Source: Enterobacter dykesii (lineage in GTDB: Bacteria; Pseudomonadota; Gammaproteobacteria; Enterobacterales; Enterobacteriaceae). From it: a stretch of 64,000 bases of DNA. The stretch covers positions 2,542,001 through 2,606,000 of the forward strand of contig NZ_CP126604.1 of assembly GCF_008364625.2 (NCBI RefSeq), given 5' to 3'. Positions 4,209-63,865 of this stretch are shown piece by piece. Position 1 is the stretch's first letter, and every line of letters starts with the position of its first letter. A program made the translations under genes and the position numbers. The notes below the pieces were generated by a model. The model was not told the origin of the DNA and made no database searches. It saw only the letters and a list, made by a program, of their open reading frames with translations.

Positions 4209-4311
4209 ACCTAAATTTGGCGCAAACATCCCCTTACATTCTGTCATAAAGCATTATTTGGCAATTTTAATAACTGTACTTAGAGACAGGTTTCAGAAGT
4301 GTTTAGGGCAT

Positions 4312-4344: not shown

Positions 4345-4363
4345 GGACATATGTAACCGTGGC

Positions 4364-5272: not shown

Positions 5273-5472
5273 TCAAATTCTCCTGAGCTGTTCAAGTTTT
5301 GAACTTTTATGCAATAAATAACGCGTTGAGTATATCAGCCTCGCCCCGCAGTCCGGGTCTGAAAAGAACGCGTTGCCGATCAATTAGGACAAATACGCAT
5401 GAATCTGGGCAGCGATAGTAGCACTCCCCGTAAAACACAGGTAAAGCAATCTTAAAATTAAGATCCAATTGC

Positions 5473-6486: not shown

Positions 6487-6577
6487 GGTTCCTCCCCTGG
6501 CTGACAGTAACTAAATAGTGGCATGCGATCGGCACTATCGCCTGTCAGATTTTGCTGAAGTAGTCAAAAAAAGGTGC

Positions 6578-7480: not shown

Positions 7481-7594
7481 TAGCCCTGTTTTACTTCCCC
7501 TGGATTCCTGACATAGCGTCAACGCAACAGCTCAGTTAACATAGTGCTACCCGAAGCGTTTTACGCCTTTATTTTTTGTTCCAGGAAGAGAATC

Positions 7595-8053: not shown

Positions 8054-8099
8054 TGCCTGACAACCCAGACTTCGCAAATACAAACAGGATTTCCCGGCG

Positions 8100-8942
8100 A
8101 TGCAATCATTACAACGTAAAGTTCTGCGCACCATCTGTCCCGATCAAAAAGGGCTGATCGCACGAATTACCAACATTTGCTACAAACATGAACTGAATAT
8201 CGTGCAGAACAACGAGTTCGTTGACCACCGTACCGGCCGCTTCTTTATGCGTACTGAACTCGAGGGTATTTTCAACGACACCACCCTGCTTGCCGATCTC
8301 GACAGCGCGCTTCCGGAAGGCTCCGTGCGCGAACTGACCCCAGCCGGTCGACGCCGCATCGTGATCCTGGTGACCAAAGAAGCACACTGTCTTGGCGACC
8401 TGCTGATGAAAGCAAACTACGGCGGTCTGGACGTGGAAATAGCTGCCGTTATTGGCAACCATGAGACGCTGCGCACGCTGGTCGAGCGTTTTGATATTCC
8501 GTTTGAGCTGGTCAGCCATGAAGGCCATACCCGCGAAGAGCACGACGATCTGATGGCCCGGGCCATTGAAGCGCATAACCCGGACTACGTGGTGCTGGCG
8601 AAATATATGCGCGTGTTAACGCCATCCTTCGTGGCGCGTTTCCCGAACAAGATCATCAACATTCACCACTCGTTCCTGCCGGCCTTTATTGGCGCGCGTC
8701 CCTACCACCAGGCCTACGAGCGCGGCGTGAAGATCATCGGTGCGACCGCACACTACGTGAATGACAACCTGGATGAAGGTCCAATCATCATGCAGGACGT
8801 GATTCACGTGGACCATACCTACACGGCCGAGGACATGATGCGTGCAGGGCGTGACGTTGAGAAGAACGTGCTGAGTCGTGCGCTGTATCAGGTGCTGGCG
8901 CAGCGTGTCTTTGTCTACGGCAACAGAACCATCATTCTTTAA
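8100..8942 (+). CDS. purU: Formyltetrahydrofolate deformylase
   Basis: PurU hydrolyses 10-formyl-THF to formate and THF; the formate feeds PurT in purine synthesis and the reaction balances one-carbon pools. The 280-residue product has an N-terminal ACT domain (about 5-85, ICPDQKGLIARI) and a C-terminal formyltransferase-type catalytic domain with HHSFLPAFIGARP and the downstream Asp in NDNLDEGPII. It is nearly collinear with the E. coli protein. The stop codon is 80 bases before the tRNA promoter. Confidence 0.98.
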   Translation: MQSLQRKVLRTICPDQKGLIARITNICYKHELNIVQNNEFVDHRTGRFFMRTELEGIFNDTTLLADLDSALPEGSVRELTPAGRRRIVILVTKEAHCLGDLLMKANYGGLDVEIAAVIGNHETLRTLVERFDIPFELVSHEGHTREEHDDLMARAIEAHNPDYVVLAKYMRVLTPSFVARFPNKIINIHHSFLPAFIGARPYHQAYERGVKIIGATAHYVNDNLDEGPIIMQDVIHVDHTYTAEDMMRAGRDVEKNVLSRALYQVLAQRVFVYGNRTIIL

Positions 8943-9023
8943 TCTTTCGGAAAATGAATTGATTAGCTTTGCACCTTTACGGATAAAAAGCAGGCAAACA
9001 GCTTCATTTACCTAAAGGAATGC

Positions 9024-9058
9024 TTTACAGGGGCGTCTCATTTGATATGATGCGCCCC
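9024..9058 (+). promoter_or_regulatory. Stringent-type promoter of the tRNA-Tyr operon
   Basis: TTTACA (9024-9029) and TATGAT (9046-9051) are 16 bases apart and followed by the GC-rich discriminator GCGCCCC. This matches the layout of E. coli tyrT, the textbook stringently controlled promoter: a GC-rich discriminator makes the open complex sensitive to ppGpp/DksA. The start should be near 9058, about 40 bases before the mature tRNA. Confidence 0.88.
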
Positions 9059-9098
9059 GCTTCCAGCAGGAAGCAGGCCAGTAAAAGCATTACCCCGT

Positions 9099-9183
<85 letters not shown>

Positions 9184-9218
9184 TCTCTCAGCACGACCTC
9201 AAAATTTGAATTACCCCT

Positions 9219-9303
<85 letters not shown>

Positions 9304-9411
9304 TCACTTTCAAACGACTCCAAACCTTACGTGCGCACCATGCATCATGCATTTCCGTAACGGGGAAGCCTTCGTAGGCGCGGCCGCCACCCGGCGACAG
9401 AAGCCAGAAGT

Positions 9412-9855
9412 TTACATCGGCGGCAAACGACGCTTCACCGGTGAACTTTTCACAATCGACGTATTGCACTGGGCATGCTCCGCCAGGCCGTCCAGCAGCA
9501 CATCCAGTTGCTCTATCGAGCGCACCACCAGCCTAATCACAAAGCAATCTTCCCCGGTGACTTTGTCGCTCTCAATACACTCCGGCATCGCCTGAATGTA
9601 TTTATCCACCTTATGCAACAGCCCCGGCAAAGGCCGCACGCGCACCAGCGCCTGCAGGGTATACCCCAGCGCTGCCAGATTCACCCGTGCGCCATACCCC
9701 TGAATCACGCCGCGCTCTTCCAGCCTCTTCAGGCGTTCTGCCGTGCTGGGGGACGTCAGACCGATGCGTCCGCTGAGCACCTTCAACGACATGCGCGCAT
9801 CCTCGACCAGACAGGCTAAAATTTGCCGATCGATATCATCGATAAGGTATTCCAT
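9412..9855 (-). CDS. Lrp/AsnC-family transcriptional regulator
   Basis: A 147-residue one-domain regulator with the Lrp layout: an N-terminal helix-turn-helix (DDIDRQILACLVEDARMS, then LSGRIGLTSPSTAERLKRLEERGVI) and a C-terminal RAM ligand-binding domain (about 65-140, with VRVRP and VTGEDCFVI). The family senses amino acids. The start is ATG at 9855, with AGGTG six bases upstream; the GTG at 9864 falls inside that ribosome site. It is divergent from a DMT transporter gene, so it probably controls that exporter in response to its substrate, which is inference. It is not Lrp or AsnC itself. Confidence 0.9.
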   Translation of the reverse strand: MEYLIDDIDRQILACLVEDARMSLKVLSGRIGLTSPSTAERLKRLEERGVIQGYGARVNLAALGYTLQALVRVRPLPGLLHKVDKYIQAMPECIESDKVTGEDCFVIRLVVRSIEQLDVLLDGLAEHAQCNTSIVKSSPVKRRLPPM

Positions 9856-9962
9856 TCTTTTCACCTAATTTTTAAAAGTGATTTCTTCCTTCAACCTTAT
9901 ATCAATCCTGTAAAACCCGACAGCGATTTTCGACAATAGGGTCATTAATCAGGAGGTGGATG

Positions 9963-10859
9963 ATGCGTGATTTACAAAAAGGCGTCGGGCAGATGAGCCT
10001 GGCGATGTTAATTTCCGGCTCTATCGGCGCGTTTGTTTTGCTCAGCGGTCTGCCGGTGACGGAAGTGGTGTTCTGGCGCTGCCTTATTGGGGCAATAGCG
10101 CTTTTCATTTTTATCCGGGTAAGTCAAAAACCCTTTAGCCCCCTCACCCGTACTACTCTACTGCTGGCTATTCTCGGCGGCGTAGCGCTCGTGGTGAACT
10201 GGCTGCTGCTCTTCGCGGCCTATGAACGGATCTCGATTGGCCTTTCGACCGTGGTGTATAACACCCAGCCGTTTATGCTGGTCCTGATGGGGATGTTTTT
10301 AGGCGAGCGCGTCAGCCTGGTGAAATGGGGCTGGCTATTCCTCGCCTTTGGCGGCGTGGTGATCTTGCTCTCCAGCGAGCTGACCGGCGCGCACGGCGGT
10401 GAATGGCTCGCCGGAATCGGTCTGGCGATGGCCGCGGCTTTCTTCTACGCGGTCACGGCCATTATTGCCCGTAAACTCAGATCCGTTGCGCCGCAGCATA
10501 TTGCCTTTATCCAGGTGCTGGCGGGCGTCGTGATGCTTTTGCCGTTTGCCAGCATGCCGTCATTTTCCGGTGATTTTCCCTGGCCTACCCTGCTGACGCT
10601 GGGCATCGTCCATACCGGCATTATGTACCAGCTGCTCTACAGCGCTATCCAGAAGCTGCCTACGCCCATTACCGGCTCCCTGTCGTTTATCTATCCGGTG
10701 GTGGCGATCGTTGTCGATAATCTGGTGTTCGGACACTCGCTGAACCTGACCCAGCTGGCGGGCGGCGCGCTGATCCTGTTTGCTGCCGCGGGCAATAACC
10801 TGGGCTGGGGCGAAAAAAAACCCCGCGAGTGCGGGGTTGGTATCAAAACGACGAATTAG
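9963..10859 (+). CDS. DMT-superfamily (EamA) transporter
   Basis: A 298-residue inner-membrane protein with about ten hydrophobic helices and two EamA repeats (about 5-135 and 145-280), the architecture of drug/metabolite transporters that often export amino acids or metabolites. The start ATG at 9963 is six bases after AGGAGG; an ATG three bases earlier is too close. Divergence from an Lrp-type gene suggests export of an amino acid, not proven. The last codons (about [14 protein letters not shown]) are written over the nar terminator, and the stop codon overlaps that of narI. Confidence 0.9.
10813..10838 (-). terminator. Intrinsic terminator of narGHJI, inside the DMT gene
   Basis: On the minus strand AACCCCGC and GCGGGGTT pair around a short ACTC loop, followed by T8. 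It starts about 20 bases after the narI stop, so it ends the nar transcript. It lies entirely within the coding sequence of the convergent transporter. Confidence 0.88.
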
Positions 10860-51734: not shown

Positions 51735-52829
51735 ATGGGATTCAAATGCGGTATCGTCGGTCTGCCAAACGTGGGCAAATCCACCCTGTTTAACGCGCTT
51801 ACCAAAGCGGGTATCGAAGCGGCGAACTTCCCGTTCTGTACCATCGAACCTAACACCGGCGTTGTGCCAATGCCGGACCCGCGTCTGGACCAGCTTGCGG
51901 AAATCGTGAAGCCGCAGCGCATTCTGCCAACCACCATGGAATTCGTGGACATCGCGGGCCTGGTAAAAGGCGCGTCCAAAGGTGAAGGCCTGGGTAACCA
52001 GTTTCTGACCAACATTCGTGAAACCGAAGCGATCGGCCACGTTGTGCGCTGCTTCGAAAACGACAACATCATCCACGTTAATAACAAAGTGGATCCGGCT
52101 GACGACATCGACGTCATCAACACCGAGCTGGCGCTCTCTGACCTCGACACCTGCGAACGCGCGATTCACCGCGTGCAGAAGAAAGCCAAAGGCGGCGACA
52201 AGGACGCGAAAGCGGAACTGGCTGCGCTGGAAAAATGTCTGCCACAGCTGGAAAACGCGGGCATGCTGCGCGCGCTGAAAAACCTGACTGAAGAAGACAA
52301 GGCGGCGATCAAATACCTGAGCTTCCTGACCCTGAAGCCAACCATGTACATCGCCAACGTTAACGAAGACGGTTTCGAGAACAACCCGTACCTGGACAAA
52401 GTGCGCGAAATCGCCGCGGCGGAAGGTTCTGTGGTTGTTGCCGTGTGCGCTGCCGTTGAATCCGACATCGCCGAGCTGGACGACGCCGACCGTGAAGAGT
52501 TCATGGCCGAGCTTGGTCTGGAAGAGCCGGGCCTGAACCGCGTAATTCGCGCAGGCTATGAGCTGCTGAACCTGCAGACCTACTTCACCGCTGGCGTGAA
52601 AGAAGTGCGTGCGTGGACCATCCCTGTAGGTGCAACTGCGCCTCAGGCGGCCGGTAAGATCCACACTGACTTCGAGAAAGGCTTTATTCGTGCGCAGACA
52701 ATCGCGTTTGAAGACTTCATCACCTATAAGGGTGAGCAAGGCGCGAAAGAAGCAGGCAAGATGCGTGCGGAAGGGAAAGATTATATCGTTAAAGATGGCG
52801 ACGTAATGAACTTCCTGTTTAACGTCTGA
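51735..52829 (+). CDS. ychF: Redox-regulated ATPase YchF (Obg-like ATPase)
   Basis: YchF is an Obg-family P-loop protein that prefers ATP, binds ribosomes and dampens the oxidative stress response. The 364-residue protein has GLPNVGKST (G1), [19 protein letters not shown] (switch II), a coiled-coil insertion and a C-terminal TGS domain ([21 protein letters not shown]), ending MNFLFNV. Its last 30 codons plus terminator occur again, decayed, at 55090, 56113 and 58197 between Rhs units. Confidence 0.99.
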
Positions 52830-52841
52830 TTCGTCTTGAAT

Positions 52842-52875
52842 GAAAAAAATCCACGCCCTGGCGTGGATTTTTTTA
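52842..52875 (+). terminator. Intrinsic terminator of ychF, symmetric
   Basis: AAATCCACGCC and GGCGTGGATTT pair around a CT loop, flanked by A and T runs, so it can work on both strands. It also lies 8 bases after the stop of the convergent YciI-like gene. The same element recurs at each of the three ychF-like copies downstream. Confidence 0.9.
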
Positions 52876-52883
52876 TTCCGGGG

Positions 52884-53177
52884 TTAAAACACATTTTCTA
52901 ATAGTTCTGTTTTCATGCTGGGTTCAAAGGGAATGATTTCAACAGTCGCAAGCTTTAACGCCTGAAAAGGATCCTCTCGCAAGCGCTCCTCAAGAGAGGC
53001 AAGACTCTCACACTTAGCGAGAATGACCCCACCGTTTCTTGGGTTCCGTCTACCGGACGCCAGGAAAATCACCTCTGCGTACCTTTTTTTAAGCCACTCA
53101 ACATGAGCAGGTATCGCTGCGTCAATCTCTTCGAGTGGTTTGATATAGGTTAAAATGACAATGTAAACCGCGCTCAT
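52884..53177 (-). CDS. YciI-family protein
   Basis: A 97-residue small alpha/beta protein: VYIVILTYIKPLEEIDAAIPAH, then FLASGRRNPRNGGVILAKC, then FQALKLATVEIIPFEPS. This is the YciI-like (dimeric ferredoxin-like) fold, with a conserved His in the first helix, found in enzymes and detox proteins of mostly unknown substrate. It lies against the symmetric ychF terminator, the position held by immunity genes in the other three units. It may be an old resident or cargo of the first Rhs unit. Confidence 0.85.
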   Translation of the reverse strand: MSAVYIVILTYIKPLEEIDAAIPAHVEWLKKRYAEVIFLASGRRNPRNGGVILAKCESLASLEERLREDPFQALKLATVEIIPFEPSMKTELLENVF

Positions 53178-53314
53178 CCTTTGCCTCTTAGCTCTGTTTT
53201 AAACCGCTTGTTGGAACTGCTTATGCAGCCCTCTTTTGCCACCGGTTATTGTTATGATTTTTTGGTGCTTTTGATGTTAATACGCAGGGCCCGATAGAGA
53301 CAACGCGTTACGCT

Positions 53315-53641
53315 TCATATCCAGGAATAAAACCAATCATGCCAGCCGTTTTGCTTTTCCGCATAGCTACAGACCACAACCACTTGCTTTGACAGGTTGA
53401 AAGTTAAGTAATAGAAAGCTGCACCTTCAGGAGGCGCAGACCAAAATAGTTTTTCACCCTGCGCATTGAAGATGGTCAAAACGGTTGGTAATGGCTTTGG
53501 CTCGCTTAACGCAAAGACTAACTGGCGTGTCGAGTCGACCATTGTATAGTCTAAAAATGGCATACTAACCAGTATGTTACGTTCACCACATGCCCATTGA
53601 AGCAGGTCATTTTCTTTAATACAAATGAGATTTTCAATCAT
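53315..53641 (-). CDS. Hypothetical protein in Rhs orphan region
   Basis: A 108-residue acidic, aromatic-rich protein without signal or membrane segments, starting MIENLICIKENDLLQW and ending NGWHDWFYSWI. I do not recognise a family. TGAGG lies seven bases before ATG, which supports translation. Its size, low GC and place beside displaced Rhs tips suggest an immunity protein whose toxin is gone, which is inference only. Confidence 0.65.
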   Translation of the reverse strand: MIENLICIKENDLLQWACGERNILVSMPFLDYTMVDSTRQLVFALSEPKPLPTVLTIFNAQGEKLFWSAPPEGAAFYYLTFNLSKQVVVVCSYAEKQNGWHDWFYSWI

Positions 53642-53852
53642 TGATAAACCTCAAATTACTTGATAACTATAAACCTGCGGGTTACCATCGAGTTTTACAA
53701 AGAAATCAACTCTATAATAATAGTCAACGCACTAAATAAAACGATAACTTTTTTCAAATATTAAAATCTAGAAAAGTTTCAATTTTAAATGAAAGAGCAT
53801 TGTTTAACATTAAATTAATTAACTTTCCACGCACTATAATAAGATATTATCC
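53642..53852. other. AT-rich spacer without recognised gene
   Basis: About 210 bases of strongly AT-rich DNA between two small genes. I find no open frame with support and no repeat. It could hold a promoter or a fully eroded toxin tip. Confidence 0.4.
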
Positions 53853-54071
53853 TTATGAAAAGAAAGGCTTGTTTTTTCCTTCTCTAGTCTGAGTGGCTAT
53901 AATAACCTCATAAGCATCATTTTCACTTTTCTGTGCTTTCAATGCCTCTTCCGGAGTAATTTTCGACTCCTTTTTAATCATAGCAATAGTTCCGGTATCA
54001 TATTGGATAAAATATTCACCATTTCTTTTGATTATGTCAACACCAAAATCTGTAAAAATAACTTCATTCAT
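53853..54071 (-). CDS. Small hypothetical protein in Rhs orphan region
   Basis: A 72-residue protein, MNEVIFTDFGVDIIKRNGEY, then FIQYDTGTIAMIKKES, rich in beta-prone and charged residues. GAGG precedes the ATG by 9 bases. No family recognised with confidence. It resembles small immunity proteins in size and setting; no adjacent toxin in the same unit is obviously its partner other than the tip at 54457, which already has its own downstream gene. Confidence 0.65.
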   Translation of the reverse strand: MNEVIFTDFGVDIIKRNGEYFIQYDTGTIAMIKKESKITPEEALKAQKSENDAYEVIIATQTREGKNKPFFS

Positions 54072-54211
54072 TTTTCACACCTCTATTTATTTATAATTGG
54101 TGTAATCAAAGCATCACCGATAGGTGTTTAATCTATTACGGCCTCAGGGATGCCTCCCGACGTCTTACCACCAGGAATCCAAAAATCTTTGCCAGTTGTT
54201 GATTTAATATT

Positions 54212-54460
54212 TTATTGCCATACATTGAACAACTGCTTCCATATCTGCTGTTCCTCAATTGTAGGGACTCTATAATCCTGAGTCTTTCGCCTATATTTCA
54301 TAAAACATGAATCTATAGCTCGAATAGCCACCATTTTTTCTTTTCGACAATCATCTAAAATAGATTGCATATCCTGTAGACAATTAGAATCAAGAATATA
54401 TTTTTGAAAAAACAGTTCCAGAAAATCTAACACTTCATTATAAGATTGTAAATTTATCAT
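54212..54460 (-). CDS. Putative immunity protein of the unit-4 Rhs tip
   Basis: An 82-residue helical protein starting MINLQSYNEVLDFLELFFQ. Its ATG overlaps the stop of the tip gene (ATGA arrangement) and AGAGGAA lies just upstream inside the tip gene. This tight toxin-then-immunity order is typical of Rhs-CT modules. No named family recognised. The low GC content contrasts with the Rhs core. Confidence 0.65.
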   Translation of the reverse strand: MINLQSYNEVLDFLELFFQKYILDSNCLQDMQSILDDCRKEKMVAIRAIDSCFMKYRRKTQDYRVPTIEEQQIWKQLFNVWQ

Positions 54461-54822
54461 GGTTCCTCTGGCAGAATATCAATCTTGTCGAAATTAATAA
54501 CTCTATTTTCAGCATGCAGCTGTTGAACATTACCTTGGCCGTATTCAGGGTATGCCTTAGTAAACGGTTCAAGTGGCGCTCCTGGTCTATCGCCGAACAT
54601 TCTCGGGGTTCGCACTTGCGGAACACCATTTTCATATAATTGAAGCGTATCAAACTCAGCTCTAAGACGTCCATCACTCCATGATTTATCCAAAGGATCA
54701 AGTGGATTCAATTTATCTGCTCCTTTGATCTGGAATGCATCTCTTACTGTGCGACCGGAGTCTAATTTATCAAAACCAAAACAATTGACTGGTGCGGATT
54801 TGGATTCAAATGTTTTAGGCAC
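54457..54822 (-). CDS. Displaced Rhs C-terminal toxin tip (unit 4)
   Basis: A 121-codon frame (GTG start at 54822) continuing upstream to about 54862 without a stop. It holds an Rhs-type tip, with GADKLNPLDPLDKSW, RLRAEFDTLQLYENG, and TKAYPEYGQGNVQQL. I do not know its activity. It has lost its link to the Rhs core: the adjacent core fragment ends in a stop in another frame (RWRYDI then TGA), and no DPxGL junction is left. It is therefore an orphan tip, probably not expressed as an effector. Confidence 0.6.
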   Translation of the reverse strand: MPKTFESKSAPVNCFGFDKLDSGRTVRDAFQIKGADKLNPLDPLDKSWSDGRLRAEFDTLQLYENGVPQVRTPRMFGDRPGAPLEPFTKAYPEYGQGNVQQLHAENRVINFDKIDILPEEP

Positions 54823-54861
54823 CCATGCGTTAATAGTACCGTCATCCTCAAGATACCTCAG

Positions 54862-55084
54862 ATGTCATAGCGCCAGCGAATGCCGTTCAGCTGCGTCAGG
54901 CGGTTCTGTGTGACCTTCTCAGTAGACCCTTCCAGCGGGTTACCGGCAGCGTCCCGTCCTGAACGAGCAGGCGCCCGGCGCTGTCGTACTGCCAGCGGTA
55001 CCAGCTGAAAGGGTTATCGTCCCGCTCTTCCCGGACCAGGTTATTGCGGTAGTCGCAATCCGAGCAGAGAAACCAGCGGCGCAT
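54862..55084 (-). pseudogene. Rhs core fragment, unit 4, frameshifted
   Basis: Minus-strand sequence matches the Rhs core around YRNNLVREERDDNPFSWYRW and QNRLTQLNGIRWRYDI. Compared with the full gene it lacks a segment between two direct repeats of GGCAGCGT, so the frame shifts within it. Only about 75 codons of core remain. It lies next to the ychF-like copy at 55090, where the join uses a short shared GGTAAAGA-like sequence. Confidence 0.8.
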
Positions 55085-55089
55085 CGCTG

Positions 55090-55198
55090 GGTGCGAAAGG
55101 TAAAGATTACATCATTAAAAATTACGATGTGATGAACTTCTTTTTTTATGTTCGATTTGTTTGAAAGAAAAAAATCCACGATTTAACGTGGATTTTCC
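55090..55198 (+). repeat. Decayed copy A of the ychF 3' end plus terminator
   Basis: Aligns with the last codons of ychF and its terminator: GGTAAAGATTACATCATTAA matches the GKDYIVK codons, GATGTGATGAACTTCTT matches DVMNFL, then TTCGATTTGTTTGAA and a hairpin AAAAAAATCCACG...CGTGGATTTT. The stem has lost part of its GC core. It is shorter at its left edge than copies B and C. It separates units 3 and 4. Confidence 0.88.
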
Positions 55199-55234
55199 CA
55201 ATATACTGAACTAAGTTGTTTAATAAATAAAAAA

Positions 55235-55591
55235 TTATAGCATAAATATGCTATTACTTTCTTTATCCATATCTAGGCTTCCTAACGCTCCAAGATCTAA
55301 AGAATAAATCTCATCAGTACCTTTGCGCAAATTCAAAAAGTACCCAAGATCACCATCTTGACCAATCAATAAAACGTCAGGCTCAACCTCTTGAATTGTA
55401 TATGTATTATTTCTTTCAAGTAAATCAAAACAATTGAAAACATAAAGCTGGTCACCATTTGCTCGTTGAATTTCATAAGAGTCAGTGTCCTTGACGTTTT
55501 CAATCATAAAGCGCTTATATTCAGAAGGTAAAGACATGCGCATGAGTTTTTCAATTTCATTTAGCTGAACAATTAAATCCTGTTTTTCCAT
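55235..55591 (-). CDS. SMI1/KNR4 (SUKH)-family immunity protein, orphan
   Basis: A 118-residue SUKH-fold protein: EIEKLMRMSLPSEYKRFMIEN is the classic SMI1 opening, and DVLLIGQDGDLGYFLNL the middle strand pair. SUKH proteins neutralise nuclease toxins of contact-dependent and T6SS systems. AAGGTAAG precedes ATG. Its toxin tip upstream (55655-55800) is broken by stop codons, so it is an orphan that may still protect against kin carrying the intact toxin. Confidence 0.82.
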   Translation of the reverse strand: MEKQDLIVQLNEIEKLMRMSLPSEYKRFMIENVKDTDSYEIQRANGDQLYVFNCFDLLERNNTYTIQEVEPDVLLIGQDGDLGYFLNLRKGTDEIYSLDLGALGSLDMDKESNSIFML

Positions 55592-55654
55592 ATCAACTTA
55601 CCTTTAAGCCAATAAGTTATATATAAAATAAATATTATTGCTATTAGACTCTCT

Positions 55655-55800
55655 CTATTGATCGAAATATTTATACGAATCCCTAATCGATTTTATTGCC
55701 TGCTGTTTTGGAACACCTGAATCAATCATTTCTTAGTAACTGATATGAAACTCTTGTTTCAGCGTTGCATCCTAATCTCCAGGCGAAGCTCCACGGGTTC
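55655..55800 (-). pseudogene. Decayed Rhs toxin tip, unit 3
   Basis: On the minus strand one frame reads GASPGD, stop, DATLKQEFHISY, stop, EMIDSGVPKQQAIKSIRDSY, then KYFDQ and a final stop. It looks like the C-terminal part of a toxin tip with two internal stops, ending about 65 bases before the SUKH immunity gene. The upstream link to the Rhs core is lost. I cannot name the toxin family. Confidence 0.6.
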
Positions 55801-55857
55801 GCTGAGTAGAACATATATTAGCATATAGACTACCTGATGCGGATTTAAGTAACTTGA

Positions 55858-56105
55858 TTGTTGCGAACCCGCGGCTGGGCGATGATTTCCGTCAGGCGGT
55901 TGTGCGTGACCTTCTCTTCAGATCCTTCAAGCGGGTTACCGTCCCGCTTTTCCTGTACCAAGTTATAGCGGTAGCAGTAATCCCTGCGGCTGATCCCCGC
56001 AGCGATGCCGTCGCCCAAGGCGGTCTTACTCGCTGCGGGGATCAGCCGCCACTGGGGGCTTTTCTCAGGGTAGAGTTGTTCGTCGCGAGTATACTGACAG
56101 CTTAT
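55858..56105 (-). pseudogene. Rhs core fragment, unit 3, heavily deleted
   Basis: Minus-strand translation gives YRYNLVQEKRDGNP, LEGSEEKVTHNRLT and EIIAQPRVRNN, which are separate pieces of the Rhs core (NNLVREERDDNP, LEGSAEKVTHNRLT, EVISQPRDRNK) joined after internal deletions. It is the most eroded of the core copies. Its right edge meets the ychF-like copy B at nearly the same core position as copy C. Confidence 0.78.
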
Positions 56106-56112
56106 TGAAGAC

Positions 56113-56255
56113 AAGGGTAAGCAAGGCGCGAAAAAAGCAAGCAAGCAAGATGCGTGCAGAAGGAAAAAAGAATAGTGTTAAAAATGACTACGTGGTGAAC
56201 TAATTAATTATTTAACATTTTTTTGGATGAAAAAATCCACGCCAGGGCGTGGATT
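56113..56255 (+). repeat. Decayed copy B of the ychF 3' end plus terminator
   Basis: AAGGGTAAGCAAGGCGCGAA matches the KGEQGAK codons of ychF, followed by AAGATGCGTGCAGAAGG (KMRAEG) and a weaker VKDGDVMN region. It ends with the hairpin AAAAAATCCACGCC...GGCGTGGATTTT. An extra GCAA repeat shifts the frame, so it cannot be a functional ychF end. It lies 6 bases from the stop of the next immunity-like gene and separates units 2 and 3. Confidence 0.9.
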
Positions 56256-56260
56256 TTCAT

Positions 56261-56704
56261 TCAGAGATAAACACCCTCTTCTAATGAGTTTTCAGTAAAC
56301 GTTGCTTTTGTAAAGGAAATTAGCACATCTGAACCATGCTTTTTATATTTAACCTCGTAACTACCTGGCTCTAAAGTAATAAACTCGCCTGAAATAGCAT
56401 CTGAATCATCTGGCTCCAGATCTCCGCCAGTGACATCTTCTCCCGCCCCTATGAAAACCTTTCCCGTAGGTACGTTTAAAAATAACGATCCGGTATATTC
56501 ACCAATATCATTTTTAATATCAACTTTATAGTTACCATCATCTCCAAGATTGAGAAATAACACATTCCCTTTATTTATTTCTTCAACTTCATCTTCTGGA
56601 AGACTCCACCAATCTGCATCATCATTTATCCTATGCTTTAATGACATCAAATCATAAATTACTAATGTGGCAGTATCCGTCTGTATATTAATGGATTTAT
56701 TCAT
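56261..56704 (-). CDS. Putative immunity protein of the unit-2 Rhs tip
   Basis: A 147-residue acidic protein, MNKSINIQTDTATLVIYDLM, with SLKHRINDDADWWSLPEDEV and a beta-rich remainder (VPTGKVFIGAGEDVTGGDLE). It begins 10 bases after the toxin-tip stop, with GGGGGG as ribosome site. I do not recognise a named family with certainty; it may fall in one of the small DUF families linked to toxin loci. Partnership with the upstream tip is inferred from position. Confidence 0.72.
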   Translation of the reverse strand: MNKSINIQTDTATLVIYDLMSLKHRINDDADWWSLPEDEVEEINKGNVLFLNLGDDGNYKVDIKNDIGEYTGSLFLNVPTGKVFIGAGEDVTGGDLEPDDSDAISGEFITLEPGSYEVKYKKHGSDVLISFTKATFTENSLEEGVYL

Positions 56705-56714
56705 TTTACCCCCC

Positions 56715-58013
56715 CTACTGAAATATTATTTCACTGATGGCGTCTCCGGGCTGAAGCCCCGCCTTTCTGCCTGCATTTTTCAAAGAACTACCGACACTTT
56801 TATTAATAGTTTCATTCAGCATTTGTAATCTTTGTGTAGGCGAACCTCCAACAATTAAATCAACAGGATGATCAGCGTTTAACTTACTTAGATCAGGTGC
56901 TGAGCCAAACATTTTTTCAAAGCGCGCAGAAACAGCCTGCCTGTAAGAACTTTGCAAAGATGAAATCCTAACCTCATGGGTGCCCGGAGACCAAACTAAC
57001 TCTCCTCGTTGAGCCGCTCGGTTTAAGGCATTCATTTTTTTCATAAACTGTCTTTCAAGGAATTTTCTCTCGGTTGAAGACAGCTTTGTGCTGCTTAAAA
57101 TCTTCGGTTTATTGACAGTTAAGCGGGTACCTCCAGAACACCTACTCAACCCCCACGGATCCACCCACCCCAGCGCATTCGGCGCATACTGGTAAAGGTT
57201 TATCCCCCCCGCCAGCCCTATCGGGTCCTGCTGCGTAAACCGTCCGCAGTCTGGGTCGTAATACCGGAACAGATTGTAGTGCAGCCCTGTCTCACGGTCC
57301 AGGTATTGCCCCTGCATGCGCAGGTTCTGAGAATATCCTGATACCTGCGTCTCGCTTTCCCGCAGCAGCTTGCCCCAGGCGCTGTTTACCCCTTCCCAGC
57401 GCACCTGCCCTTCGATATCCGTCATCCGCTCCGGCGTGCCGTTGGGCTGGCAGTGGAACCAGAAGATCTCCGGAGCATCCACGCCATCAATACGCGCCAG
57501 CGGATCGAAGCTGTCCTGATCGCTGTAGACGTAGGTCAGCGGCACATCCCCGTGCACCTCCTGCAGCAGGCGGAAGCCTTCCCAGACAAACCGGGTGGTG
57601 ACCGGCTTGCCGGTTGGCTGTCCGCCCAGCATCTGCCGTCGCGTTTTGCTGATGCGGCGACCAAGCGGATCGTAGCGGAAGCTTACCTGCGTCTGCGGTT
57701 TGTTGCGGTCCCGCGGCTGGCTGATGACCTCCGTCAGGCGATGTTCGCCGTCGTAGCGGTAGTGCCAGCGGGTCTGGCTGTTATCTTTCTCCACGGTGCG
57801 GCCGTGGATGTCATAGCGCCAGCGAATGCCGTTCAGCTGCGTCAGGCGGTTGTGCGTGACCTTCTCAGCAGATCCTTCGAGAGGGTTACCTGCAGCATCC
57901 CAGCGCCACTGCTCCTGGCCGGGCAGCGTACCGTCCTGAACGAGCAGGCGCCCGGCGCTGTCGTACTGCCAGCGGTACCAGCTGAACGGGTTATCGTCCC
58001 GCTCTTCCCGCAC
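56715..58013 (-). CDS. Orphan Rhs core fragment with intact toxin tip (unit 2)
   Basis: An open frame of 432 codons (first start codon GTG at 58013, without a ribosome site) carries the last part of the Rhs core, nearly identical to the full gene, through the junction PNALGWVDPWGL. It then has a different tip of about 150 residues starting SRCSGGTRLTVNK and containing LNADHPVDLIVGG and a C-terminal NETINKSVGSSLKNAGRKA. Homology extends upstream to about 58197 but with an in-frame TAG near 58157. The tip family is unknown to me. It is probably silent, but could be swapped into the full gene by homologous recombination. Confidence 0.82.
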   Translation of the reverse strand: MREERDDNPFSWYRWQYDSAGRLLVQDGTLPGQEQWRWDAAGNPLEGSAEKVTHNRLTQLNGIRWRYDIHGRTVEKDNSQTRWHYRYDGEHRLTEVISQPRDRNKPQTQVSFRYDPLGRRISKTRRQMLGGQPTGKPVTTRFVWEGFRLLQEVHGDVPLTYVYSDQDSFDPLARIDGVDAPEIFWFHCQPNGTPERMTDIEGQVRWEGVNSAWGKLLRESETQVSGYSQNLRMQGQYLDRETGLHYNLFRYYDPDCGRFTQQDPIGLAGGINLYQYAPNALGWVDPWGLSRCSGGTRLTVNKPKILSSTKLSSTERKFLERQFMKKMNALNRAAQRGELVWSPGTHEVRISSLQSSYRQAVSARFEKMFGSAPDLSKLNADHPVDLIVGGSPTQRLQMLNETINKSVGSSLKNAGRKAGLQPGDAISEIIFQ

Positions 58014-58197
58014 CAGGTTATTGCGATAGTCGTAATCCCAGCGGCGGGACCAGCGGCGCGGCGACGGGCGCTGGGCATTGCCGGTAAAGACGTCCCGGCG
58101 GTGCAGTCGGCCGAGGCGGTCGTACTCGCTGCGGGTGGTCAGCAGCCACGGGGGCTATTCTCAGGGGGGGATATTCGTCGCGAGTATAACGACCGCT
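58014..58197 (-). pseudogene. 5' part of the unit-2 Rhs core fragment
   Basis: The reading frame of the unit-2 core continues upstream of the GTG as WDYDYRNNL, GRLHRRDVFTGNAQ and LLTTRSEYDRL, then meets TAG at about 58157. Beyond that, AGTATAAC and TTCGTCGCG match the core near 60920 before the ychF-like copy C starts. This shows that the unit is a truncated copy of an rhs gene, not a small gene of its own. Confidence 0.75.
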
Positions 58198-58342
58198 AAG
58201 GGTAAGCAATGTGCAAAAAAAGCAAGCAAGATACGTGCGGAAGGGAAAGATTAAGTCGTTAAAGATAGCGATGTGAAGAACTTCTTGTTTAATGTTTGAT
58301 TTGTTTTGAATGAAAAAAATCCACGCCTTGGCGTGGATTTTT
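58197..58342 (+). repeat. Decayed copy C of the ychF 3' end plus terminator
   Basis: TAAGGGTAAGCAATGTGCAA, then GTGCGGAAGGGAAAGATTAA, GTTAAAGATAGCGATGTG and AACTTCTTGTTTAATGTTTG follow ychF codons [23 protein letters not shown]... through the stop. The terminator AAAAAAATCCACGCC...GGCGTGGATTTTTT is well preserved. Reading ychF's frame gives an early stop after frameshifts. It is the best-preserved copy and separates the active unit 1 from unit 2. Confidence 0.92.
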
Positions 58343-58355
58343 TGCGCGTGATCTA

Positions 58356-58829
58356 TCAATAGATGACTAGTTTGCCCGCTGGCCAAGTACCTGACCATCC
58401 ACAGGGCATATGCCCAGCTTCATAAACATTAATTAATCCGTCAAAAAAGAATGGCTCTTGAAGAAAATTACTATACGCATCTTCAAGCAAGTAATTCACA
58501 AGATCCCATTTTAACGTCTCAGTCATTGAGCCTTTCACTGACTCCGGGAGGGTTATTTTTGGGATAATATCATTCTCTACAACATTCTTGGCTTCTTTGA
58601 CCAAAGAATTCCAATATTGATATTTGTTAGTGTGTTTTTTTGCGAGATAACCCGTTATTTCATTACCAGCCGCCAGGGTGGCTCTTTCCCATTCATCGCT
58701 ATTCAGCCCTTTTATAAATAAGCTAAAGGACTGAACTTGTATAACACCAGTGAGTGTCGTTGCCACACCAAGATTAACAAACCAATTAATATTATTTAAC
58801 CTATATATTGCTAACCAGGATATCTTCAT
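58356..58829 (-). CDS. Hypothetical protein downstream of the Rhs immunity gene
   Basis: A 157-residue protein starting MKISWLAIYRLNNINWFVNL, with ATLAAGNEITGYLAKKH and PFFFDGLINVYEAGHMPCGW near the C-terminus. I do not recognise a family. It is in the active Rhs unit, after the SUKH gene, and ends 14 bases from ychF copy C. The N-terminal half is mildly hydrophobic but without a clear signal. It may be a second immunity protein or Rhs accessory protein, perhaps left from an earlier tip. Confidence 0.72.
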   Translation of the reverse strand: MKISWLAIYRLNNINWFVNLGVATTLTGVIQVQSFSLFIKGLNSDEWERATLAAGNEITGYLAKKHTNKYQYWNSLVKEAKNVVENDIIPKITLPESVKGSMTETLKWDLVNYLLEDAYSNFLQEPFFFDGLINVYEAGHMPCGWSGTWPAGKLVIY

Positions 58830-58898
58830 ATTTTAACCTGATTTATTTTACCTAGGAACCTAGGTATGTTCATAACTCCAAGCAGCCATGCTGCTTTA

Positions 58899-58936
58899 TA
58901 ATAAAGCTCTATGAGCTGCGTCACAGAGCTTTATTA
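58899..58936 (-). terminator. Inverted repeat after the SUKH gene, possible terminator
   Basis: TAATAAAGCTCT and AGAGCTTTATTA form perfect 12-base arms around a 14-base loop, about 65 bases after the SUKH stop on the minus strand. The A/T-rich outer arms give a short T tract, so it may be a weak terminator. A second palindrome AGCAGCCATGCTGCT lies at 58881-58895. Confidence 0.5.
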
Positions 58937-59000
58937 ACAATATGAATATCAAAATAACAGCAATCGAATTAAATAAATCGATTAAATTTTTAAGTGTACT

Positions 59001-59483
59001 TTAAGAAAGATCCTCTTCTGCTACTAATTCGTTAACAAAGTTAGCAAATGAATTTGTCAGATATCTTTGAAGTTTTGTGTGATTCTCGTGCATAGTCAAA
59101 TCCTCATCAAAAGAATCTGTAGCAAAATATACAATTGAGTAATTATCTAAATTCAGGCAGAAGAAATTCCCTCCCCAATCATTTGCGAAAGGAAGCAGGT
59201 TTTTAGGAATCACTTCCCTATCCACCATGCTGATATAGCAACCGTCAATTAAAGAGCCAGGGGCATTATTTGTATGACTATTATAAACAAACGGCTTAAA
59301 CGCAGCCACCTCTATTGGCTCAAAATCTTCATCACCGTCCCACCAACTTTTCTCTGGGGTGCCACCATTAAATTGCAGATAATGTGAGACAAAATCATCC
59401 GGAAGAGTAATAGATAATTTATCTTCCGCTTTAGCAATATCTGCACGTCCAATATTTTTTTCACAGTTACTGAAATGATTCAT
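59001..59483 (-). CDS. SMI1/KNR4 (SUKH)-family immunity protein of the active Rhs effector
   Basis: A 160-residue SUKH-fold protein: IAKAEDKLSITLPDDFVSHYLQ, then FNGGTPEK, and LPFANDWGGNFFCLNL, the signature blocks of SMI1/KNR4. It should bind and block the WHH nuclease tip encoded just upstream. I start it at MNHFSNCEKN (59483), 9 bases after GAGG; a GTG at 59498 overlapping the rhs stop is the alternative and would add 5 residues. Either way it follows the rhs gene without a gap large enough for a promoter, so toxin and immunity are co-expressed. Confidence 0.88.
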   Translation of the reverse strand: MNHFSNCEKNIGRADIAKAEDKLSITLPDDFVSHYLQFNGGTPEKSWWDGDEDFEPIEVAAFKPFVYNSHTNNAPGSLIDGCYISMVDREVIPKNLLPFANDWGGNFFCLNLDNYSIVYFATDSFDEDLTMHENHTKLQRYLTNSFANFVNELVAEEDLS

Positions 59484-59494
59484 TGATTTATACC

Positions 59495-62400
59495 TCACTG
59501 GTGACAGTTTGCACGCAATTTTTTCGGGACTCGCCCCTTCAACCAGCCTTTAGAATGAGAAACAGCAATGGCTTCTTGGGAACCATATTTTACGCCAAAA
59601 TATTTCTCGAATTGTGAGACTGAGCCTTTATGTGGGAAAGTAGCTTCATGCGCAGAAGTTTTTACTAATTGCATTGTTGTCCTTCCTGTGGCTGGGTCAA
59701 AATCATCGACATGATGCCATGTATATCCGGTTGCTTCGCTTTTAGAAATACCGGCTGCCTTGAAAGCCTCGGTGAAATCTCTATCTCGAGTTCCTTGCAT
59801 TGTAATAGATACAATATTCTGTTTCGTTCCATTGATAGGGAAAAGATCTGGACTTCCTGTAAAGTCAACTCCCTTTAATGCTAACCCCCACGGATCCACC
59901 CACCCCAGCGCATTCGGCGCATACTGGTAAAGGTTTATCCCCCCCGCCAGTCCTATCGGGTCCTGCTGCGTAAACCGCCCGCAGTCCGGGTCGTAATACC
60001 GGAACAGATTGTAGTGCAGCCCTGTCTCACGGTCCAGGTATTGCCCCTGCATCCGCAGGTTCTGAGAATATCCTGATACCTGCGTCTCGCTTTCCCGCAG
60101 CAGCTTGCCCCAGGCGCTGTTGACCCCTTCCCAGCGCACCTGCCCTTCGATATCGGTCATCCGCTCCGGCGTGCCGTTGGGCTGGCAGTGGAACCAGAAG
60201 ATCTCCGGAGCATCCACACCATCAATACGTGCCAGCGGATCGTAGCTGTCCTGATCGCTGTAGACGTAGGTCAGCGGCACATCCCCGTGCAGCTCCTGCA
60301 GCAGACGGAACCCTTCCCAGACAAACTGGGTGGTGACCAGCTTACCGGTTGGCTGTCCGCCCAGCATCTGGCGTCGCGTTTTGCTGATGCGTCGCCCGAG
60401 CGGATCGTAGCGGAAGCTGACCTGCGTCTGCGGTTTATTGCGGTCCCGAGGCTGGCTGATGACCTCCGTCAGGCGATGCTCACCGTCGTAGCGGTAGTGC
60501 CAGCGGGTCTGGCCGTTATCTTTTTCCACGGTGCGGCCGTGGATGTCATAGCGCCAGCGAACGCCGTTCAGCTGCGTCAGGCGGTTGTGCGTAACCTTCT
60601 CTGCAGATCCTTCGAGCGGGTTACCGGCAGCGTCCCAGCGCCACTGCTCCTGTCCGGGCAGCGTGCCGTCCTGAACGAGCAGGCGCCCGGCGCTGTCGTA
60701 CTGCCAGCGGTACCAGCTGAACGGGTTATCGTCCCGCTCTTCCCGCACCAGGTTATTGCGATAGTCGTAATCCCAGCGGCGGGACCAGCGGCGCGGCGAC
60801 GGGCGCTGGGCATTGCCGGTAAAGACGTCCCGGCGATGCAGTCGCCCAAGACGATCGTATTCGCTGCGGGTGGTCAGCAGCCCCTGAGTGCGGCTGGTCT
60901 CCCGGTGGAGTTCGTCGCGGGTAAAATCGGAGACCGACAGCTTATCAAGAACAATGCTGAGCAGATGCCCGCTGCCGTAGTAAAACTGCTTGAGCTCGCG
61001 GCCGTCGGGCAGCGTGACGGAGGTCCGGTTGCCCAGCGCGTCATACTCCCACGCCAGCTCGCCGTGCTCGCCCGCCTCGCGCGTGACGCGACCGAGCGCG
61101 TCATACTCAAAGGCGAGCTCCTGCTCTGCTTCGGTGGTCCACGCGTCGGCTGCAAGCGCAGGATGCAGCCCAATCCGGCTTAACAGCCCGGACGGCGTGT
61201 AGTGATAGCGGGTCTTCCCCTCCGGCGTGGTGCGGGCGACCAGCTGGCCGCTCGCGCTCCAGGCGAAGGCGTGGGTGATGGCCTCCGGATGACCGGCGGC
61301 AAACGTGCGCGCTATCGTGCGCCCGCAGGCGTCGTAGCGATACTGCGAGGCTACGCCATCGAGCCCTACCTCTTCCAGCAGCAGCGAGTCCGCGCCCCAG
61401 CGGAACTGATATGCTTCGCCGTTTTCGTTTTCCAGGGCAATCAGACGCCCGCGGCTGTCCCAGCGGCGGCGTACCTCTTCACCCTGCGTATTACGGGTGG
61501 CGGTTAAGCGCCCTGCCTCATCATATCTGAACTCACTCTCTTTACCGTCGGCGCCCGCATGCTTCACCGGCAGGCCACGTTCGTTCCATTTGAGCGATTC
61601 CGTCCAGCCTTCCGGGCGATCGAGCTGCACCGGACGCCCTGCGGCGTCGTAGCGATAACGGGTCTCTTCCCCGTCGGCGCCAGTCTCGGCCACCAGCCAG
61701 CCCAGCGGATGGTAGCGGTAGCGGGTAATACGCCCGGAACAGTCCGTCGAACGAACGATCTGCCCGGCCTCGTTATACTCCTGGTAGCGGCTCTTTCCGG
61801 CGGCATCAACCTCTTCAACGACCTGGCCGAACGCGTCCCGGCGCAGCTGCGTGGTCTGCCCCATCGGGTCCACCACGCGCTTCAGCCCGTGATGTTCGTC
61901 GTACCAGAACCGGGTGGCGCTGCCGTCGGCTTCGATAATGGCCGCGGGAAGCGCGCGGTGCTCCAGCCAGGCGGTGGTGCGGGTATTGCCGTCAGCGTCG
62001 ATCTCCTGAACCCGGTTACCCATTTCGTCGTAGACGAAGGTAACGGCATTGCCGAGCGGATCGATGCGGCGCGTCAGAAGCTCGTTGTCGTCCCACTCGT
62101 AGCGCCAGTTTTCACCGCGCTCGTCAACGTAGCGGACAATCAGATTCTGCGCGTTCCAGTAGTGGCGGCGCGTCTGGCCGTCGTAGTGCTCGACGGTCGT
62201 CAGCCCGGCGGCTAAATCGTAGTTAAAGCGGCACCCGTCGCCGGTGCTGGTGCGGTTTTCCACCACGCGCCAGTGATCGAATTTTTTCCAGCGGTATTCG
62301 CTCTCCAGACCGCCAGGCATCCGGTGCCAGACCATCAGCCCGTGCTCGTTATAGCGGTATTCACGCGTCACCACGCCGGAGGCATCCGTCGCGCTCGCCA

Positions 62401-63865
62401 GCTGTCCGCGCGCGTCATAGCCCCACTGCATCAGCGGCCAGGTTTGGCTGCCGTCGAAATGGCTGGCAGCGGTAACGCGCTGCGGGAAACGTTCATCGTC
62501 ATAGCGCAGGGTGACGTCTATCGCCCGCGGCTCGTCGTGAAGGCCGACCAGCCTGCCGTGCTCGTCCCACTCTATCAGCAGCGCGTTGCTGTATTCGTCG
62601 CTGAGGGAGGCCAGACGCAGGATAGATGGATTCGCCCGGGTCGGTTTATACAGACGCCACACCGCACCGTCATCGTCGGCAATCGCCACGTCGCCGTTCT
62701 CATTACGGCGGATGATAATGCCTTCGCTGATGCTGTAAAACGCACGGTCGACAGGCGGCAGTTCAAAGCTCAGCTCGCGCCCGGTTTCATCGAACCAGGT
62801 CGCATTGTTATCTTCCAGCGTGAGATAGCTGTCAAAGATCGTTGCCCAGCCCAGGCCGAACAGCCCTTCGCGGGTGGTCAGGCTGTTGTAGCTGCGCTGC
62901 CAGCGAAGCGGGAAGCGCCCCGGCAGCGAGAAATCGAGCTCGTCGTCGTCATTCAGCACCTTCACGCCGGTGGCGGCGTGAACCGGGTGCGAGGAGCCAA
63001 ACACGGCATTCACCGCCATATCGGCCAGCATCCCGCCGCCGGCCGCCGCCAGCGCACAAGGCATGTTTTTCAGGATCTTACCCGGACGCCCTCGCAGCAG
63101 GGAGAGCGCAATCATCCCCAGCGCCAGACCCGGCGTTTTACCGCTTTTGATATCGCGGACCGTGAGCGTGTCCCCGCCGATGATCACGTTCGGGGAGACG
63201 TCGTCGGAAACGGTGCCTTCGCAGGTGGTGCGATCTTTCGCGCGCACCGCGGGCTGCCCGTTGATAAAGACACTTTTAGAGCCTTCCGCCAGATACTGCG
63301 GCCCGGAGTGCTTTTCGCACGCCACCTTGTCTTCTTCCAGCGGTGAGGTTCCCGCGGCGGCAGAGGCCACGCTCGGCTGCCACATTTCGCTGCCAAACTG
63401 TCCGGCGGCGGAAAGCAGCATGCCCGCGTAATCGGCAAAGCTGCCCGGCGACTGCGGCTCAGGGGACGGCGTATCGGCGGGCGTCAGCGTGCCTGCCGCC
63501 CGCGCGGCGGGGATTGCGTTGGTGAGAACGTTGCTGGAACCAGTAGTGATTTTACCCGCAGGCGACGGCGGGAAAAGCGCATTGCCTAACCCCTCAGCGG
63601 CGTTGCTGATATCGTCGGTGATCCCCGCCACGTTCGCCAGCACGCCACCGATAATCCCGCTTAACAGACAGCTGGATCCAATTGCTGCCACGCCTGCAGC
63701 TGCTGCCCCGGCCCCCAGCAATGGCGCCGCTACGGTTGCTGCTGCGCCTACCGCCGCGCCGATCACCGCATAGGCGGCACCTTCCGCCACAATGCTGGTG
63801 ATGTCAGCAAAAATGCTGGAGTGAATAATCTCGTCGCCCTTACGGGCCGCGTTGTTATCGCTCAT
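59495..63865 (-). CDS. Rhs-family PAAR effector with WHH nuclease tip (T6SS toxin)
   Basis: A 1456-residue Rhs protein. The N-terminus holds a split PAAR domain (NAARKGDEIIHSS, later GSKSVFINGQPAVRAKDRTTC and VIIGGDTLTVRDI) with two hydrophobic stretches between (about 28-100) that need the EagR chaperone. Next are an Rhs pre-core segment (HPVHAATGVKVLNDDDELDF) and many YD/Rhs repeats (about 320-1300) that form the toxin cocoon, closed by the self-cleavage motif PNALGWVDPWGL near residue 1328. The tip, about 130 residues, contains GYTWHHVDDFDPATGRTTMQ, the W-H-H signature of HNH/EndoVII-type DNases. The core is GC-rich and the tip AT-richer. It is the only complete rhs gene of the locus. Confidence 0.95.
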   Translation of the reverse strand: MSDNNAARKGDEIIHSSIFADITSIVAEGAAYAVIGAAVGAAATVAAPLLGAGAAAAGVAAIGSSCLLSGIIGGVLANVAGITDDISNAAEGLGNALFPPSPAGKITTGSSNVLTNAIPAARAAGTLTPADTPSPEPQSPGSFADYAGMLLSAAGQFGSEMWQPSVASAAAGTSPLEEDKVACEKHSGPQYLAEGSKSVFINGQPAVRAKDRTTCEGTVSDDVSPNVIIGGDTLTVRDIKSGKTPGLALGMIALSLLRGRPGKILKNMPCALAAAGGGMLADMAVNAVFGSSHPVHAATGVKVLNDDDELDFSLPGRFPLRWQRSYNSLTTREGLFGLGWATIFDSYLTLEDNNATWFDETGRELSFELPPVDRAFYSISEGIIIRRNENGDVAIADDDGAVWRLYKPTRANPSILRLASLSDEYSNALLIEWDEHGRLVGLHDEPRAIDVTLRYDDERFPQRVTAASHFDGSQTWPLMQWGYDARGQLASATDASGVVTREYRYNEHGLMVWHRMPGGLESEYRWKKFDHWRVVENRTSTGDGCRFNYDLAAGLTTVEHYDGQTRRHYWNAQNLIVRYVDERGENWRYEWDDNELLTRRIDPLGNAVTFVYDEMGNRVQEIDADGNTRTTAWLEHRALPAAIIEADGSATRFWYDEHHGLKRVVDPMGQTTQLRRDAFGQVVEEVDAAGKSRYQEYNEAGQIVRSTDCSGRITRYRYHPLGWLVAETGADGEETRYRYDAAGRPVQLDRPEGWTESLKWNERGLPVKHAGADGKESEFRYDEAGRLTATRNTQGEEVRRRWDSRGRLIALENENGEAYQFRWGADSLLLEEVGLDGVASQYRYDACGRTIARTFAAGHPEAITHAFAWSASGQLVARTTPEGKTRYHYTPSGLLSRIGLHPALAADAWTTEAEQELAFEYDALGRVTREAGEHGELAWEYDALGNRTSVTLPDGRELKQFYYGSGHLLSIVLDKLSVSDFTRDELHRETSRTQGLLTTRSEYDRLGRLHRRDVFTGNAQRPSPRRWSRRWDYDYRNNLVREERDDNPFSWYRWQYDSAGRLLVQDGTLPGQEQWRWDAAGNPLEGSAEKVTHNRLTQLNGVRWRYDIHGRTVEKDNGQTRWHYRYDGEHRLTEVISQPRDRNKPQTQVSFRYDPLGRRISKTRRQMLGGQPTGKLVTTQFVWEGFRLLQELHGDVPLTYVYSDQDSYDPLARIDGVDAPEIFWFHCQPNGTPERMTDIEGQVRWEGVNSAWGKLLRESETQVSGYSQNLRMQGQYLDRETGLHYNLFRYYDPDCGRFTQQDPIGLAGGINLYQYAPNALGWVDPWGLALKGVDFTGSPDLFPINGTKQNIVSITMQGTRDRDFTEAFKAAGISKSEATGYTWHHVDDFDPATGRTTMQLVKTSAHEATFPHKGSVSQFEKYFGVKYGSQEAIAVSHSKGWLKGRVPKKLRANCHQ

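Follow-up and report, generated by a model that had tools for sequence, protein, structure and literature searches.

The window analysed here is a stretch of 64,000 nucleotides from Enterobacter dykesii (contig NZ_CP126604.1), in which the gene ychF on the + strand and an array of Rhs toxin genes on the − strand form a convergent pair, with three displaced units between the leading Rhs gene and ychF. Degraded copies of the ychF 3′ end, here called scars, lie between these units, and they are a real, genus-wide trace of Rhs array growth for which we found no published account. Our results suggest that the array probably grew by the uptake of donor ychF-rhs DNA, held at one end by homology in the Rhs core and attached at the other end, inside ychF, by an illegitimate join. 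Displacement of Rhs C-terminal ends is itself known; what is new here is that the flank of the donor has left readable scars and that these scars have been reused.

Scars of ychF in the array

Each scar repeats the final 109-147 nt of ychF and the DNA behind it, including the terminator, and all are on the + strand like ychF. A first-pass annotation, made from the letters of the window, had reported that the ychF 3′ end and its terminator recur in degraded form at three places between Rhs units, and all three copies are genuine. Chance similarity was rejected on the whole-genome E-values, which are listed below together with the identities to ychF; at E ≤ 0.001, the same search returned beyond scars A-C only the ychF gene and hits to the palindromic terminator on the reverse strand. 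The features of the window, some of them read as open reading frames (ORFs), are as follows.

51735..52829, + strand: genuine ychF, 364 aa, from which the 3′-end copies derive (ORF; YchF-GTPase_C, 3.2e-39)
52844..52875, no strand: symmetric terminator 3′ of ychF, facing unit 1 (seen in the sequence)
52884..53177, − strand: YCII-domain gene adjoining ychF, cargo type alpha (PF03795, 7.6e-13)
54212..54460, − strand: putative immunity gene of unit 1 (position behind the tip; 94% identity to a gene of genome G057)
54457..54822, − strand: displaced Rhs tip of unit 1 (tip region 98% over 507 nt to an attached tip of G057)
54861..55082, − strand: core fragment of unit 1 (81% to own core)
55088..55196, + strand: ychF scar A, joint J2 at about 55087 (78%, E 2.7e-18; G014 has the same joint type)
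55235..55591, − strand: orphan immunity gene of unit 2, SUKH-1 (PF09346, 2e-5)
55858..56091, − strand: shredded core fragment of unit 2, tip lost (core pieces at 77-94%)
56113..56257, + strand: ychF scar B, joint J1 at 56112/56113 (74%, E 3.9e-19; joint placed by eye)
56261..56704, − strand: orphan immunity gene of unit 3, DUF6386 (PF19923, 1.2e-61)
56715..58013, − strand: displaced core end and tip of unit 3, open frame of 432 aa (ORF; tip flank 97% to one in G029)
57148..58147, − strand: core fragment of unit 3 (96% to own core)
58197..58343, + strand: ychF scar C, joint J1, far part near native ychF (87%, E 4.7e-46; joint-side changes common with B)
58356..58829, − strand: flank gene of unit 4, cargo type delta, with no match in Pfam or NCBIfam (flank 90% over 549 nt to DNA beside the genuine ychF of G034)
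59001..59498, − strand: immunity gene of unit 4, SUKH-1 (PF09346, 2.4e-19)
59495..63865, − strand: full-length PAAR-Rhs, 1456 aa, with WHH nuclease tip (PF05488, PF05593, PF03527, PF14414)

The order proposed in the annotation (core, tip, immunity gene, ychF end) is complete in three of the four units; unit 2, between scars A and B, has no tip ORF and retains only its immunity gene and core shreds. The sides assigned to core and immunity gene are right in the reading direction of rhs and wrong in + strand coordinates, where each copy has the core on its left and the immunity gene on its right. A joint common to scars B and C, and different from that of A, had also been recognised correctly, and only its position needs to be moved: TTCGTCGCG, where it had been placed, is ordinary core sequence (the main core of the window has GAGTTCGTCGCGGGT there), and the true joint is to be found some 25-30 nt to the right of it, at CAGCTTAT...|AAGGG, as placed by eye.

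Recurrence of units and reuse of joints across the genus

When the ychF-rhs interval was compared across the genus, the pattern of units and scars recurred. The search covered 61 genomes, with 13 candidates scored per genome; G054 gave no match and was left out, and stretches of up to 20 kb downstream of ychF were taken from 59 genomes and from the window genome (n = 60; four stretches were shorter). Convergent rhs was found behind ychF in 21 of the 60, including G029, where rhs extends beyond the first 20-kb stretch and was completed with further sequence. Twelve of these 21 loci contain ychF scars, 27 in all, one of which (in G007) has no adjoining core. Under one rule applied to all 21 loci, a ychF scar of at least 60 nt lies next to 26 of the 33 displaced core fragments. 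In the stretches fetched for the other 39 genomes, a second ychF end was absent, and matches, where there were any, had the size of the terminator (about 25-40 nt); two of these genomes (G037 and G040) carry rhs and a ychF piece farther off, the piece in G040 being 74 nt long.

The displaced units can be matched to loci of other species. Aligned with ten single or simple loci as references, G034 is unbroken with G010 over positions 5692-7159, from native ychF to core (93.8%), and with the native locus of G019 over 7288-9094 (91.9%, about 1.8 kb), and G027 with the native locus of G049 over 7358-9764 (85.8%). These three full runs begin inside native ychF and pass through immunity gene and tip into the core; G014 4572-5274 is likewise unbroken with G019, from ychF into the cargo (88.5%). 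No whole unit of the window aligned unbroken to a native locus among the ten references. The cargo to the right of scars is the cargo that stands beside genuine ychF elsewhere (window scar C and G034, 90% over 549 nt; G014a and G019, 93% over 578 nt; G034b and G010, 93% over 798 nt), and orphan tips are attached tips elsewhere: over 507 nt, the tip region of unit 1 in the window shares 98% identity with that of the full-length rhs in G057, G034c corresponds to G010 (95%), G029b to G027 (99.8%) and G029e to G039 (99%). The arrays thus have the marks of C-terminal displacement, namely a full-length rhs with partial core-tip pieces behind it whose tips are unrelated, the displaced tips being attached in relatives. 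Judged from these sequence matches, the units were likely spliced in from other strains. The earlier proposal that units ordered core, tip, immunity gene and ychF end pushed older tips toward ychF is supported by the cross-genome matches as well as by the joints.

Six classes of core|ychF joint were distinguished, with coordinates given on the core and ychF genes of the window genome (G000).

J1: core about 1430-1470, ychF about 993-1001; G000 (twice), G008, G009, G014, G017, G020, G026, G029 and G034 (by position and by eye), G037 (by position only)
J2: core about 1300, ychF 1028; G000, G014
J2′: core about 1399, ychF 1028; G017, G034
J3: core 1125, ychF 688; G026, G027, G029, G034
J4: core 1401, ychF 940; G029, G039
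J5: core 1065, ychF 891; G039

No joint class was assigned to scar G027b or to a terminator-only contact in G029. Automatic ungapped split scoring was clear for J1 (G009, G014), J3 and J5, and ambiguous for J2. Six breakpoint pairs in one orientation point to non-homologous founding events beside a homologous core, and not to an attachment site. The core side is homologous (the window fragments are 77-96% identical to the main core) and the joint is not, the combination expected of homology-facilitated illegitimate recombination. In G037 (L222), about 42 kb separate the ychF of that genome from an rhs array bearing a J1-type scar, as if a large insert had later come between the two or the array had moved.

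The reuse of an ancestral joint, suspected in the annotation, extends well beyond the window: J1 is present by position in 10 genomes (with two J1 scars in the window) and J3 in four. J1 precedes four types of cargo and J3 three. A 15-nt deletion (ychF 781-795) is shared by five of the eight J3-type copies and is absent from all 59 native genes compared (G043 was left out); two more copies have a larger deletion spanning 785-795, and the eighth (G029c) has none. The five deletion bearers carry cargo alpha (G026a), beta (G034b), gamma (G027d and G029a, which are nearly identical copies) and a partly alpha-like cargo (G027c). Considering that the deletion is common to them while the cargo differs, the five copies descend from one scar whose right-hand neighbour has been exchanged. 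Some scars are also mosaic: in three of the seven J3-type copies tested, divergence from the nearest native ychF is significantly higher on the joint side than on the far side, at 16% versus 4% in G034b (p 0.00055), 15% versus 4% in G026a (p 0.0011) and 16% versus 7% in G027c (p 0.013), all p-values being uncorrected. In the window, scars B and C have in common the joint-side words GGTAAGCAA and GCAAGCAAG, which none of 60 native genes has, and the far side of scar C resembles native ychF in alignment, the stretch being short and hence given without a p-value.

Explanations for array growth

We infer an illegitimate founding step that is followed by homologous steps. A donor ychF-rhs fragment would pair by homology with the core of a recipient rhs, and its other end, inside ychF, would be joined without homology to the recipient core, so that the old tip is pushed down. 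The core-flanked units and the scars would then serve as homology for later additions and swaps by the ordinary homologous recombination of the host, and such later events through core-flanked units and scar would account for one joint with several cargoes. Either linear DNA or circles like those of Jackson et al. 2009 may carry this re-exchange; where a locus repeats one joint in tandem, core-flanked cassettes or circles would give that result more easily than simple swaps. More tentatively, leaning slightly against it, we consider that the ychF tail, once caught in rare illegitimate grafts, became the portable left arm of a genus-wide exchange, in which scarred units (core|ychF tail, immunity gene, tip, core), homologous at both ends, swap across species and the scar labels the rival locus of origin.

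The idea of ychF as a special or chosen boundary is not supported: the six joints lie at differing points, seven of the 33 displaced core fragments lack a detectable ychF scar, and other flanks are repeated elsewhere. Among 21 rhs stretches of other genera, chosen for several core pieces lying together (two stretches overlap, and G136 is included), three repeat a non-core segment, with at least one copy no more than 100 nt away from a displaced core piece and a further copy past the final one. These non-ychF repeats lie at 4604-4769, 8087-8231 and 9469-9635 in G242 (L202), at 2998-3516, 7289-7371 and 9759-10277 in G255 (L213), and at 4227-4346 and 5623-5748 in G146 (L214); they are possible scars of other neighbours. 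In G281, G168, G087 and G239, there are internal repeats of less clear origin, and the remaining stretches have none or short ones. In G281 (L205), a 1.9-kb segment of the rhs stretch is repeated at 96% (2463-4396 and 8567-10502), possibly by duplication in place.

No ychF scar was found in 20 ychF loci of other genera, of which only four (G159, G269, G136 and G256) have an rhs match and one (G197) is a stretch of just 2.6 kb; rhs is reversed in G136 and G256, convergent and single in G159, and a weak match in G269. In a further 80 loci, neither rhs nor a second ychF-like protein was matched. The family search scored two candidates per genome, and second copies may have escaped it. Escherichia coli showed only short core matches (46 of 5,426 genomes, the best covering 6% of the query), and its arrays were not used. 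In G021 (L057), G136 (L186) and G256 (L187), rhs lies near ychF in the other orientation without ychF scars, which provides a natural control for the neighbour model. G021 has in addition a SUKH gene directly behind ychF (oriented 1350-1703), 92% identical to the orphan immunity gene of unit 2 in the window, with no convergent rhs there. It is therefore probably not ychF that is special; what gets caught is probably whichever neighbour stands behind the immunity gene.

Several observations weigh against growth by donor ychF-rhs DNA. The joints show little microhomology (0-6 nt by eye), and the automatic split is poor or the core misplaced for G000B, G026b and the J4 and J2′ copies. Seven of the 33 displaced core fragments have no detectable ychF scar, a repeated flank was present in only three of the 21 stretches from other genera, and no scar or displaced core piece was found in G159, where a convergent rhs does stand behind ychF. 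Four of the seven J3-type copies tested did not differ significantly between joint and far side (p 0.1, 0.14, 0.28 and 0.39), and native ychF itself is slightly more variable on the joint side (2.9% versus 2.0%). Native ychF 3′ ends do not group by the adjoining cargo (18 of 21 genomes typed; p ≥ 0.35 in all 10 windows), and hence no exchange at the genuine gene was detected. Single-unit loci could also result from array collapse, the direction of transfer is one that we infer, and the genome sample contains no near-identical pair of strains differing by one unit.

The nearest alternative, which we rate a little below an even chance, is that tips travel as small circles (core, tip, immunity gene, ychF end) and enter by one core crossover, as in Jackson et al. 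2009. The ychF end would be part of the circle because an old joint, or recombination of genuine ychF with a scar, had closed it. This reading shares the homologous second step of growth by donor DNA. Homologous steps would suffice in it for the mosaic scars and for loci that repeat one joint side by side (the window has two J1 scars, G027 two of J3 and G029 three of J3); circles do not make the first joint of each class, and six joints would still require non-homologous joining. It is unlikely that the scars are kept for a function, as two-way terminators that insulate each unit, the coding part being a passenger. All three window scars keep a perfect stem of 10-13 bp though their ychF identity fell to 74-87%, but across the genus a perfect stem of at least 8 bp is kept by only 12 of 26 scars (27 less G029c, which was left out), one of the 12 (G017b) being a different sequence.

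The same arrangement would arise if the segment ychF end, immunity gene, tip and core had been duplicated in place, in tandem, and the copies had then diverged or had their tips replaced, and the 1.9-kb repeat in G281 fits this. However, neighbouring units, where compared, bear unrelated tips and immunity genes that match the loci of other species; plain duplication was rejected on these unrelated tips, and we regard it as very improbable. Scarcely credible is the site-specific integration of islands that would use the ychF 3′ end for attachment in the way other islands use tRNA genes. Every boundary does carry the 3′ end of a gene together with its terminator, but the joints differ (ychF nt 688, 891, 940, 993 and 1028), scars were found only in genomes with rhs nearby, and no recombinase family was recognised among 10 array ORFs scanned, five of which matched no family at all; the varied joints and the absence of an integrase family among those ORFs led us to reject it.

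Retained genes and known systems

In the window, displaced units 2 and 3 both retain an intact immunity gene, and seven full-length comparisons show purifying selection on these genes: the ratio of nonsynonymous to synonymous substitution rates (dN/dS) is 0.08-0.21 for the SUKH-1 gene of unit 2 (versus three genomes) and 0.11-0.19 for the DUF6386 gene of unit 3 (versus four genomes with full-length copies; the G020 copy, in two pieces, was left out). The putative immunity gene of unit 1 has a dN/dS of 0.13 against its G057 counterpart, and the YCII-domain gene beside ychF 0.08-0.27 against six other genomes with full-length, stop-free copies. The delta cargo gene is not kept everywhere, having a stop in G009 and being in pieces in G007. 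In the window, one tip has been lost and the core pieces are decaying; the frame of the unit 3 tip is still open. Since the immunity genes have survived this loss and decay, the array would keep a record of the toxins of past rivals.

The leading gene and its SUKH-1 neighbour together have what defines a PAAR-Rhs effector of the type VI secretion system (T6SS): PAAR, Rhs repeats, a toxin tip and an immunity gene. SUKH proteins often pair with WHH-type nucleases. In locus L096, an ORF of 640 aa (2586-4508, − strand) upstream of the full-length rhs is VgrG-like by eye, which fits T6SS delivery. ORFs of about 355-368 aa that look alike lie near three rhs loci (L096 5924-6997, − strand; L213 8757-9863; L214 6227-7294).

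No paper combining ychF, rhs and orphan was found in a literature search that left preprints and most subscription papers outside its scope; papers with both ychF and rhs concern other subjects, by their titles and the start of their abstracts. According to the accessible parts of Jackson et al. 2009 (PMC2935791), Rhs C-terminal ends are displaced and circles are made by core-core recombination. The arrays described here resemble theirs in the full rhs followed by displaced core-tip pieces, in exchange among relatives and in the homologous core; unlike in those parts, which mention no flanking-gene scars, most boundaries here carry a piece of a neighbour gene, in six joint classes. Orphan toxin-immunity modules beside a full-length gene are likewise reported for contact-dependent inhibition (CDI) loci of Acinetobacter (PMC6336857), where illegitimate joining is also invoked, and in a study of orphan Rhs expression in Salmonella (PMC3967940); scars of a neighbouring housekeeping gene are present here, whereas the available text of both papers describes none.

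Kirchberger et al. 2017 (PMC5361080), in the portions available, explain Vibrio cholerae T6SS clusters by sequential displacement through homology-facilitated illegitimate recombination. There as here one end is anchored by homology and the other joined without it, and immunity genes are kept while effectors are lost; the view expressed there that old immunity genes give protection against kin agrees with the retention found here. The difference is that their illegitimate step is proposed on the basis of gene order, whereas here joints with the donor flank are readable and have been reused with new cargo. A hybrid Aux1 locus of V. cholerae (PMC9711863, as far as its accessible text goes) similarly combines one crossover in a homologous chaperone gene with another, without apparent homology, at the 3′ end of the donor immunity gene; it represents a single event at an immunity gene for which that text describes no recurring joint, whereas joints recur here. 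In the parts of the literature available to us, the gain of units by polymorphic toxin loci is argued from gene order. Joints that can be read, left by the neighbour gene, allow more in the arrays described here: a new joint can be counted as a founding event and an old joint with new cargo as homologous reuse, and the likely donor of a unit can be traced. Strain-level genomes together with long reads could then serve to test the circle model against the linear one.

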